Shown here: positions 3,273 through 5,209 of the stretch, piece after piece | How positions within the stretch are numbered: position 1 is the stretch's first letter | How the letters are laid out: every line of letters starts with the position of its first letter | From: a virus | Virus record (IMG/VR): IMGVR_UViG_3300047457_000907 | Span: 1 to 31,835 of that record | Strand: one strand, 5' to 3' | DNA length: 31,835 nucleotides | Position numbers and translations under genes: made by a program | Notes under the pieces: model-generated | What the model saw: the letters and a program-made list of their open reading frames with translations, nothing else | Told to the model about the DNA's origin: nothing | The model's database searches: none

Positions 3273-3565
3273 AGAAGCGTTATTTCGTGATCGGCTCGCT
3301 GCCCGAGGGCTTTCATGTGGATGCGTTCCTGATCCGTTTCTTCGCGGAGCGGAACGACTGGGTCAGTGGAGTGGATACGTTTCTCCACGATGTCACCTCG
3401 GTGCTGGGTGCGGACGGGGTGATCCTAGGCGGCGACTGGTGCGGGGACAGCTACGCCGTGGCCCTGTTGGCTGCGGCGAGGGCCTGCCATCGTCCGGTGC
3501 TGGATGCGTCCACGATGGAGCATTCGGTGATGATCACCATCCCTTGGGGCGGGGAGCCTGAGTAA
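3269..3565 (+). CDS. DUF4406 / nucleoside 2-deoxyribosyltransferase-like protein
   Basis: A 98-residue protein that begins MKKRYFVIGSLP and contains ADGVILGGDWCGDSYAVAL followed by AARACHRPVLD. This matches the layout of small phage proteins related to nucleoside deoxyribosyltransferases: an N-terminal beta strand, then a xDGVxLLPGW-type loop and a helix leading to a final strand. It may act in nucleotide salvage or modification, but the GW is here GDW and the catalytic residues are not certain. The start overlaps the previous stop as ATGA. Its last codons lie in copy 1 of a 32-bp direct repeat (3528-3559). The second copy is followed by TAA in the same relative phase, so the original gene probably ended there before a cassette was inserted. 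Confidence 0.6.
   Translation: MKKRYFVIGSLPEGFHVDAFLIRFFAERNDWVSGVDTFLHDVTSVLGADGVILGGDWCGDSYAVALLAAARACHRPVLDASTMEHSVMITIPWGGEPE
3528..3559 (+). repeat. 32-bp direct repeat, copy 1
   Basis: It begins TGATGATCACC and ends GGGGAGCCT, identical over 32 bases to 4015-4046. The first copy encodes the end of the deoxyribosyltransferase-like protein (reading MITIPWGGEP). It stops 5 bases before the ATG of the acetyltransferase gene. Confidence 0.95.
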
Positions 3566-4017
3566 TGGGGCTGATTCTTTGTCCGATAACGCTGAAAGAT
3601 GCAAATGTCTTGGTTGCTAGATGGCATCGGCATCACGGCGTTAGGAAATTCGGCCTGTTTGCGATTGCGTGTTGCGTTGAAGGTGAAGAAGAGCCCTGTG
3701 GGACAGTCATTGTGGCTCGGCCAATAGCAAGAGCGTTAGATGACGGATGGACTGCTGAGGTGGCAAGGGTAGCAACCAACGGTCACCCTAATGCATGCTC
3801 TTTTTTATTGGGTGCAGCGTGGCGAGCGTGTCGGGCTATGGGCTACAGACGCTTGGGCACTTACACGCTTCCTCAAGAAGGCGGGGCAAGTCTCAGGGCA
3901 GCCGGCTGGACATGTGTCGGCTCAACCACGCCCAAGAGTTGGAATACGAAATCAAGGCCGAGGGTCGATCACCAGCCGCTTCAGAAGAAATTGCGATGGG
4001 AGCGATCTTGCGACTGA
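3565..4017 (+). CDS. XF1762-family GNAT-like N-acetyltransferase
   Basis: A 150-residue protein resembling phage XF1762-type putative acetyltransferases: LCPITLKDANVLVARWHRHH at the start, FGLFAIACCVEG, CGTVIVARPIARALDDGW, EVARVATNGHPNACSFLLGA, CRAMGYRRLGTYTLPQEGGA, SLRAAGW, and a basic tail ending KKLRWE. These phage enzymes are thought to acetylate an unknown substrate; roles in DNA modification or host takeover are inferred only. The coding sequence is visibly less G+C-rich than its neighbours. It fills the space between two 32-bp direct repeats: its stop TGA is the first codon of copy 2, and its ATG overlaps the TAA of the gene before it. This suggests a recently inserted cassette. Confidence 0.8.
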   Translation: MGLILCPITLKDANVLVARWHRHHGVRKFGLFAIACCVEGEEEPCGTVIVARPIARALDDGWTAEVARVATNGHPNACSFLLGAAWRACRAMGYRRLGTYTLPQEGGASLRAAGWTCVGSTTPKSWNTKSRPRVDHQPLQKKLRWERSCD

Positions 4018-4046
4018 TGATCACCATCCCTTGGGGCGGGGAGCCT
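4015..4046 (+). repeat. 32-bp direct repeat, copy 2
   Basis: Identical to 3528-3559 and offset by 487 bases. It starts at the stop codon of the acetyltransferase gene. In copy 2 the phase that reads MITIPWGGEP is followed at once by TAA, as expected for the displaced original 3' end of the upstream gene. Confidence 0.95.
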
Positions 4047-4372: not shown

Positions 4373-5209
4373 ATGAGATTAACTTTCGGATCGCTCTTCG
4401 CTGGGATCGGTGGACTCGACCTCGGTTTTGAACGCGCGGGTTTTGAGTGCCTCTGGCAGGTGGAGATCGACAGCTATGCGCGGTCGGTGCTGGACAGGCA
4501 CTGGCCTGATGTGCGGAAGCATGATGATGTAAGGACCTGGCCTTCAGCGGACACGCCATTCGTGGACTGCCTGATAGGAGGCTTCCCGTGCCAGGATGTG
4601 AGCGTTGCTGGAAAAGGAGTAGGGATTCATGGCGAAAAAAGCTCGCTCTTCTTCGAGTTCATGCGAATTGCCGGCGAGATGGGACCCCGATACCTCGTCC
4701 TGGAGAACGTGTCAGCCCTCCTTGCTCGGGGGATGGGAGATGTTCTCGGGACGATGGCCTCGCTCGGGTATGATGCGGAATGGCATTGCTTCGGTGCTGC
4801 CCACGTTGGCGCACCGCATATCCGGGACAGGATCTTCATCCTCGGGTACAGGCAGCGAGTCGTGGCCGACTCCAACTTGCCGGGACTGGAAGAGTGGTCA
4901 GGCATCTGCGAATACACTGGAGCGGAACTCCAGGCCACTCAACGAAGTCATCGAAAGCAGGGTTCGGATGTGGAATCCGCCGGCGGCGGGCGATTCGCAC
5001 ATAGCTGGACCGAATCAGAAGATAGCAACACTGGGCCGCCAGGTGCGCCGCGAGGAGGGATCTGGTCGTTTGAACCCCGAGTGGGTCGAGTGGCTGATGG
5101 GGTTCCCAAGAGGGTGGACCGCATTAAATGCCTAGGAAATGCGGTGGTGCCGCAGGTAGGCCAGTTCGTCGCGGAAGTGCTTCTGGATAGGGCAAGGCGA
5201 GGGTTTTAG
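4373..5209 (+). CDS. DNA (cytosine-5) methyltransferase
   Basis: A 278-residue C5 methyltransferase: motif I FGSLFAGIGGLDLGFE (5-20), motif IV GGFPCQDVS with nucleophile C73, AGKGVGIHG and SLFFEF, motif VI LENV (E111), motif VIII GAPHIRDRIFILG, and motifs IX-X as PRVGRVADGVPKRVDR followed by LGNAVVPQVGQFVAEVLL. It would transfer a methyl group from S-adenosylmethionine to cytosine; no restriction partner is nearby, so protection from host restriction is the likely role. It is short for the family because the region between motifs VIII and IX (about 160-235), which holds target recognition, is brief. A second gene-like frame runs through positions 4629-5135. Confidence 0.95.
   Translation: MRLTFGSLFAGIGGLDLGFERAGFECLWQVEIDSYARSVLDRHWPDVRKHDDVRTWPSADTPFVDCLIGGFPCQDVSVAGKGVGIHGEKSSLFFEFMRIAGEMGPRYLVLENVSALLARGMGDVLGTMASLGYDAEWHCFGAAHVGAPHIRDRIFILGYRQRVVADSNLPGLEEWSGICEYTGAELQATQRSHRKQGSDVESAGGGRFAHSWTESEDSNTGPPGAPRGGIWSFEPRVGRVADGVPKRVDRIKCLGNAVVPQVGQFVAEVLLDRARRGF
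4629..5135 (+). CDS. overlapping +1-frame gene inside the methyltransferase (WPTPTxRDWKSG / NPEWVEWLMGFP family)
   Basis: A 168-codon frame lies wholly within the methyltransferase gene. AAGGAG is 9 bases before its ATG. Its product carries motifs I recognise from phage proteins encoded beside C5 methyltransferases: SWRTCQPSLLGGWEMFSG, RWPRSGMMRNG, LPTLAHRISGTGSSS, SWPTPTCRDWKSG, NSRPLNEVI, and LNPEWVEWLMGFPRGWTALN near the end. The same DNA encodes GRVADGVPKRVDR in the methyltransferase frame, so two recognisable protein families use one stretch of DNA. Its function is unknown. Either both frames are translated, or this family descends from a frame change in a methyltransferase gene. Motif recall is from memory. 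Confidence 0.6.
   Translation: MAKKARSSSSSCELPARWDPDTSSWRTCQPSLLGGWEMFSGRWPRSGMMRNGIASVLPTLAHRISGTGSSSSGTGSESWPTPTCRDWKSGQASANTLERNSRPLNEVIESRVRMWNPPAAGDSHIAGPNQKIATLGRQVRREEGSGRLNPEWVEWLMGFPRGWTALNA

Follow-up and report, generated by a model that had tools for sequence, protein, structure and literature searches.

Cytosine C5 methyltransferases in one and two chains

In the single-chain C5 cytosine methyltransferases M.HhaI and M.HaeIII, the recognition domain and motif IX stand in the same chain as the large domain; motif IX of M.HhaI reads LTPRECARVMGYP. M.EcoHK31I and M.EaeI, which share the YGGCCR specificity, consist of two chains. M.EcoHK31I requires both polypeptides for activity, and Lee et al. 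1995 are said to have found that its small one (~176 aa) comes from an alternative frame inside alpha (~309 aa). Motifs I to VIII and X lie on the large subunit and motif IX only on the small one, the recognition domain being assigned to alpha (PMC3404938). M.AquI is also naturally split, with motifs I to VIII on alpha and the distal variable region and motifs IX and X on beta (PMC3404938).

The stretch analysed here, hereafter the window, comprises 31,835 nt of the IMG/VR virus record IMGVR_UViG_3300047457_000907, and its terminase, portal and tail genes mark it as phage DNA. One of its loci very probably encodes a single heterodimeric C5 cytosine methyltransferase, whose subunits would be read from overlapping frames. 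The closest known enzyme is M.EcoHK31I: in both, motif IX is found on a separate small chain and motif X on the large one, the chains measuring 168 and 278 aa in the window against a reported ~176 and ~309 aa. The small-subunit gene of the window is nested in an alternative frame, as is reportedly that of M.EcoHK31I. However, the literature places the recognition domain of M.EcoHK31I in alpha, whereas in the window a conserved recognition-like domain is carried by beta; moreover, M.EcoHK31I is part of a restriction system, while the window holds a phage gene beside which no restriction enzyme was identified. From M.AquI, which has motif X on its small subunit, the window differs in that its alpha holds motif X (LGNAVVPQ) and that the +1 frame encoding beta lies wholly within the alpha gene; the M.AquI partition is matched by relatives from Streptomyces and the phages Nyxis, EricB and Orcanus. 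The large domain of M.HhaI and M.HaeIII is matched by alpha, but the window, unlike these enzymes, does not hold the rest in the same chain. The two chains match PHROG 363 (alpha-type) and PHROG 1008 (beta-type), where their origin from the same DNA is unrecorded and usually one frame is annotated.

The two chains encoded in the window

The alpha chain (278 aa, 4373..5209, on the plus strand like all features of the two genes given here) matches PF00145 (E 3.5e-47, restricted to aa 4-164), TIGR00675 (dcm, E 2.5e-43) and phrog_363 (E 5e-74), and its assignment is also based on AlphaFold2 (AF2) and Foldseek. Motifs I to VIII and X are present, among them the diagnostic motifs I, IV (PCQ), VI (ENV), VIII (RxR) and X (GN), and residues P72, C73, E111, N112, R151, R153, G255 and N256 are invariant; the catalytic PCQ with Cys73 occupies 4586..4594, where P72 and C73 are invariant in alignment A2. 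The best Foldseek match is the large domain of M.HhaI (E 7.8e-18), and a profile match to the M.HhaI/M.HaeIII-type large domain was obtained at E 4.3e-39. AlphaFold2 models aa 1-165 with a pLDDT of ~95 and the final 20 residues with one of ~90, but stays below 50 over 172-241 and 243-251. In the model, alpha is thus folded as the M.HhaI large domain, with a predicted disordered hole at the place of the small domain.

Neither a recognition domain nor motif IX was found in alpha, where EPxVGRVADGVPxRVDR occupies the place of the motif; both are in beta instead. The variable stretch of alpha (~aa 172-231, 4886..5065) is predicted to be disordered (pLDDT <50) and appears as an out-of-frame shadow of the beta recognition domain, with a mean pair identity of 0.149 in alpha versus 0.250 in beta. 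An earlier note on this DNA, made from the sequence alone, had held that the same letters encode the methyltransferase's own GRVADGVPKRVDR and its recognition region; the former is present, but the latter part has to be given up, alpha being variable and predicted disordered there. Motif X follows at 5132..5155 (LGNAVVPQ, with the invariant G255 and N256), the stop codon of beta falling at its first codon.

The beta chain (168 aa, 4629..5135) is encoded in the +1 frame relative to the methyltransferase ORF, from an ATG at 4629 to a TAG at 5133-5135; its assignment is based on phrog_1008, on conservation of the +1 frame and on the shuffle and fourfold-site tests described below. The 168-codon open frame and the AAGGAG Shine-Dalgarno sequence (4614..4619, exactly 9 nt before the ATG) are as the earlier note had described them, and so are the motifs WPTPTCRDWKSG (beta 79-90) and NPEWVEWLMGFPRGWT (beta 149-164) and alpha GRVADGVPKRVDR. 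Across relatives, 26 of 29 testable loci have 4 or more matching Shine-Dalgarno nucleotides ahead of a beta start, against 50% of shuffles, and 18 of 29 have 5 or more, against 19%.

Apart from phrog_1008, annotated as 'DNA methyltransferase' (E 1e-26), little in the databases resembles beta. No Pfam match was obtained for it or its relatives and no NCBIfam match for beta itself, a PDB profile search with beta returned no C5 methyltransferase and nothing relevant, and a fold search with the low-confidence AF2 model of beta alone (pLDDT 61) gave no match. Its conserved elements are W(D/N)P..S.W(R/K)T, WPRxGxMRNG, the PTPxA..D repeats and LNPEWVEWLMGFPxGWT. The first PTPxA..D repeat of the recognition domain, WPTPTCRDWKSG, lies at 4863..4898; its T81 and P82 are at least 90% conserved in alignment A1, and such repeats stand in frame in the single-chain methyltransferase of prophi104-2. 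The element LNPEWVEWLMGFPxGWT resembles C5 motif IX, and the motif-IX sequence carried by beta is LNPEWVEWLMGFP; at 5070..5120, LNPEWVEWLMGFPRGWT is read in beta with an identity of 0.79 and EPRVGRVADGVPKRVDR in alpha with 0.57. By its motifs, neither chain alone is a complete C5 methyltransferase; alpha and beta together hold the full set.

Immediately upstream of the locus, around 3565-4017, is a Mom-like DNA modification gene (phrog_1384, E 1.9e-29). It is flanked by a perfect 32-bp direct repeat, TGATGATCACCATCCCTTGGGGCGGGGAGCCT, at 3528-3559 and 4015-4046, which encodes the tail of the ORF preceding the Mom-like gene; the arrangement looks as if this gene had been inserted as a cassette.

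Constraint on both frames and their occurrence in relatives

In the window alone, 14 of 200 synonymous shuffles of alpha also keep the +1 frame open; the open frame by itself is weak evidence in this one sequence, and the comparative evidence is decisive. Of the 44 representatives sharing less than 70% alpha identity, all have an open beta frame and nearly all a third frame broken by stops. A leave-one-out HMM of beta was then applied to 100 synonymous shuffles of alpha per locus, which leave the alpha protein intact, and the real beta score exceeded all 100 shuffles in 40 of the 40 loci tested (for the window, 154 bits, the best shuffle reaching 70). Third-base identity at fourfold sites of alpha is 52.5% where both sequences compared lie inside the overlap, 28.6% outside it, and 25.5% by expectation. 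The third bases at P235, G238 and V240 have an identity of 1.00 and those across alpha 235-245 are near-invariant, while from L254 to P260, in motif X just past the beta stop, identity has fallen back to background, at 0.25-0.42.

The fourfold third positions of beta, which are first positions of alpha, fall into three zones: 0.63 versus 0.28 opposite alpha motifs VI to VIII, an almost free 0.335 versus 0.280 opposite the variable (recognition) stretch, and an intermediate 0.46 versus 0.28 at motif IX. Selection thus acts on both frames in the front part, almost exclusively on beta over the recognition stretch, and at motif IX chiefly on beta and to a lesser degree on alpha. Purifying selection is therefore found in both frames, where the earlier note had proposed to look for it, the fourfold sites of alpha being constrained inside the overlap only. 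A chance open frame is rejected by the comparison (shuffle HMM and fourfold sites), not by the window alone. None of the three outcomes that the earlier note had regarded as refuting (a +1 frame interrupted in close relatives, motifs lacking homologues as separate proteins, synonymous variability indifferent to the second frame) was encountered; the frame, for one, is open in all representatives.

A viral scan with the alpha sequence of the window alone gave no relatives, the peptides being too specific, and the alignment was used instead. A beta that is +1 relative to alpha was found in all 68 distinct beta-selected viral loci, in 80 of 80 alpha-selected ones (L226 only at 14 bits) and in 80 of 80 selected by DNA pattern, three sets that partly overlap, and in 80 of 80 prokaryote genome loci, including those of two archaeal (Poseidoniaceae) MAGs. 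Motif IX in frame with alpha was found in none of the 80 alpha-selected viral loci. A different architecture was considered for six genome loci with extra or same-frame matches and rejected, these being explained by single indels or a second gene copy. With tblastn of beta against phages, 36 records were retrieved (from phages of Mycobacterium, Paenibacillus, Synechococcus, Microcystis, Acinetobacter, Xanthomonas and others), and in those examined beta stands at the methyltransferase locus in the +1 frame. Many relatives have a beta of 270-320 aa that is nearly co-extensive with alpha. Where motif IX is in frame, as in the canonical phage C5 methyltransferases of Javan123, Miro, the SPbeta hybrid and C4.1, a full +1 beta is absent; C4.1 has only a weak match of 20 bits.

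The earlier note had likened the +1 motifs to those of stand-alone phage proteins found beside methyltransferases. This did not hold: apart from one extra tandem copy in L046 and L047, each homologue sampled is encoded +1 relative to a C5 methyltransferase gene, and genomes and viral contigs yielded no other beta-only locus. The Streptomyces loci L309 and L324, considered as beta-only, were rejected as such, being AquI-like with an alpha that ends early. A plasmid search returned three beta homologues only, EcoHK31I not among these. Annotation covers alpha only in Spikelee, S-H1, ABMM1, ctgrD200 and the Leptospira and Rhodoplanes plasmids, beta only in FoX4, and both frames in Leyra.

Natural variants assign beta to the enzyme. 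In Streptomyces (L157, L309, L324), the mycobacteriophages Nyxis and EricB and the Arthrobacter phage Orcanus, alpha goes no further than motif VIII; PTP repeats or an equivalent, motif IX and motif X (IIGNGVVVQQA or a similar sequence) are encoded by the +1 ORF that overlaps it. In Mycobacterium prophi104-2, a single frame encodes one chain with motifs I to VIII, PTPxA repeats, FSEWMQGWPLGWV and IIGNGVVPQQA. Taken together, the AquI-like loci and this fusion argue that beta is the C-terminal recognition and motif-IX half of a C5 methyltransferase placed in another frame. With such an in-frame single-chain homologue, the birth of the family by frame change, raised in the earlier note, is plausible.

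Several further arrangements were observed. The extra beta ORF of L046 (3526-3996; also in L047) directly follows the alpha/beta gene; its own frame is open, the alpha frame of this copy is broken by seven stops, with the GN of motif X changed to GS, and its recognition part has diverged, so that it is possibly an alternative specificity subunit. In L083 (1855-1865, Mycobacterium phage Llama group), L127, L122 and L167, both alpha and beta change frame at what looks like one indel, and in Llama-type phages the product is annotated as two DNA methylase genes; these could be broken copies, sequencing errors or recoding. In L117 (2464-4731), L119 and L121, from Micromonospora and Dactylosporangium, beta has no stop after motif IX and continues in frame into the downstream gene, a possible long fusion. 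Finally, the canonical single-chain methyltransferases of Firmicute phages in L251 and L252 have long +1 ORFs ending in LSDILExxVxEKYxLS, partly like the N-terminus of beta and possibly a second frame-shifted family.

A candidate dual-coded enzyme and its meaning

As alpha lacks motif IX and is predicted to be disordered over the recognition stretch, while beta has both a recognition domain and motif IX, the two are best read as subunits of one enzyme. Alpha, in frame 0, would form the AdoMet-binding catalytic large domain with motifs I to VIII and X, its frame across the recognition stretch serving mostly as a flexible linker. Beta would be started by internal initiation inside alpha, from its own Shine-Dalgarno sequence and the ATG at 4629, and would provide the DNA-reading small domain, made of the target-recognition repeats and motif IX; its binding to alpha would then complete an enzyme able to methylate DNA. 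Judged from sequence comparison, the +1 frame is a real gene, and the biological role is probably an orphan modification of phage DNA.

It is improbable that beta is a separate regulatory or accessory protein, such as a counter-defence factor, which overlaps the enzyme incidentally and acts outside it. The want of a confident structural match for beta and its conserved N-terminal part WPRSGMMRNG, unlike any known methyltransferase motif, would suit such a protein; however, alpha is everywhere without motif IX and a folded recognition domain, beta always supplies the motif-IX sequence, motif X is found on either chain, and the domains can be fused into one. Programmed +1 ribosomal frameshifting, by which the front of alpha would be joined to the C-terminus of beta as one chain, is somewhat less probable still. 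Conservation of the beta frame extends upstream of any junction, opposite alpha motifs VI to VIII (G104, L110, S114, L117, A118, A129), Shine-Dalgarno sequences are enriched at beta starts, and a single shift in the window would cost motif X; these points outweigh the openness of both frames and the prospect of a fusion uniting motifs I to VIII with the recognition domain and motif IX.

The two remaining explanations deny beta a product. A constraint on synonymous sites exerted by an RNA or DNA element is highly improbable: the near-invariant third bases at alpha 235-245 could be so explained, but the nearly free third positions of beta over the recognition stretch are a coding signature, no Rfam family was found in the overlap, and every relative has an open beta frame, stops interrupting the third frame in nearly all. 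The most remote reading is that alpha alone is translated and that the +1 similarity is a by-product of conserved methyltransferase residues and codon use. Such an effect does exist, since shuffles still average 13-67 bits in most loci, alpha motifs VI to VIII partly mimic beta, and the canonical methyltransferase L251 gives a 20-bit +1 match. Yet the real score beats every shuffle in each locus, beta is better conserved than alpha over the recognition stretch, the signal runs past the alpha stop in AquI-like loci, and beta is open where alpha has decayed. The heterodimer encoded by two overlapping genes accordingly remains the preferred reading, and the true overlap proposed in the earlier note is borne out by the comparative, shuffle and fourfold-site evidence.

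Long overlaps between genes on the same strand are described as rare in prokaryotes and difficult to prove, only a few being fully established (PMC9927249). A literature search in open-access papers found no prior description of a widespread overlap of this kind; what is new is its breadth across phages, bacteria and archaea, the evidence of selection and the evidence for a recognition domain on beta. Tentatively, and with considerable doubt, these loci may form a family of fully dual-coded C5 methyltransferases that is ancient and spans phyla, the recognition subunit being encoded in the +1 frame of the catalytic subunit; the overlap would fix the linkage and ratio of the subunits, and extra betas as in L046 and L047 would give one catalytic subunit several specificities. 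If true, this family would be among the most widespread long same-strand overlaps in prokaryotes and viruses, and largely unannotated. With hundreds of independent, divergent examples of one gene type, dual-frame constraint becomes directly measurable, and a testable route to overlap is offered by the succession of a single chain, a split in which beta holds motif X, and the nested pair. Moreover, many orphan Dcm annotations in phages and bacteria would lack the half by which the DNA sequence is probably read, and it would be misleading to predict specificity from the annotated ORF alone or to express only that ORF in another host.
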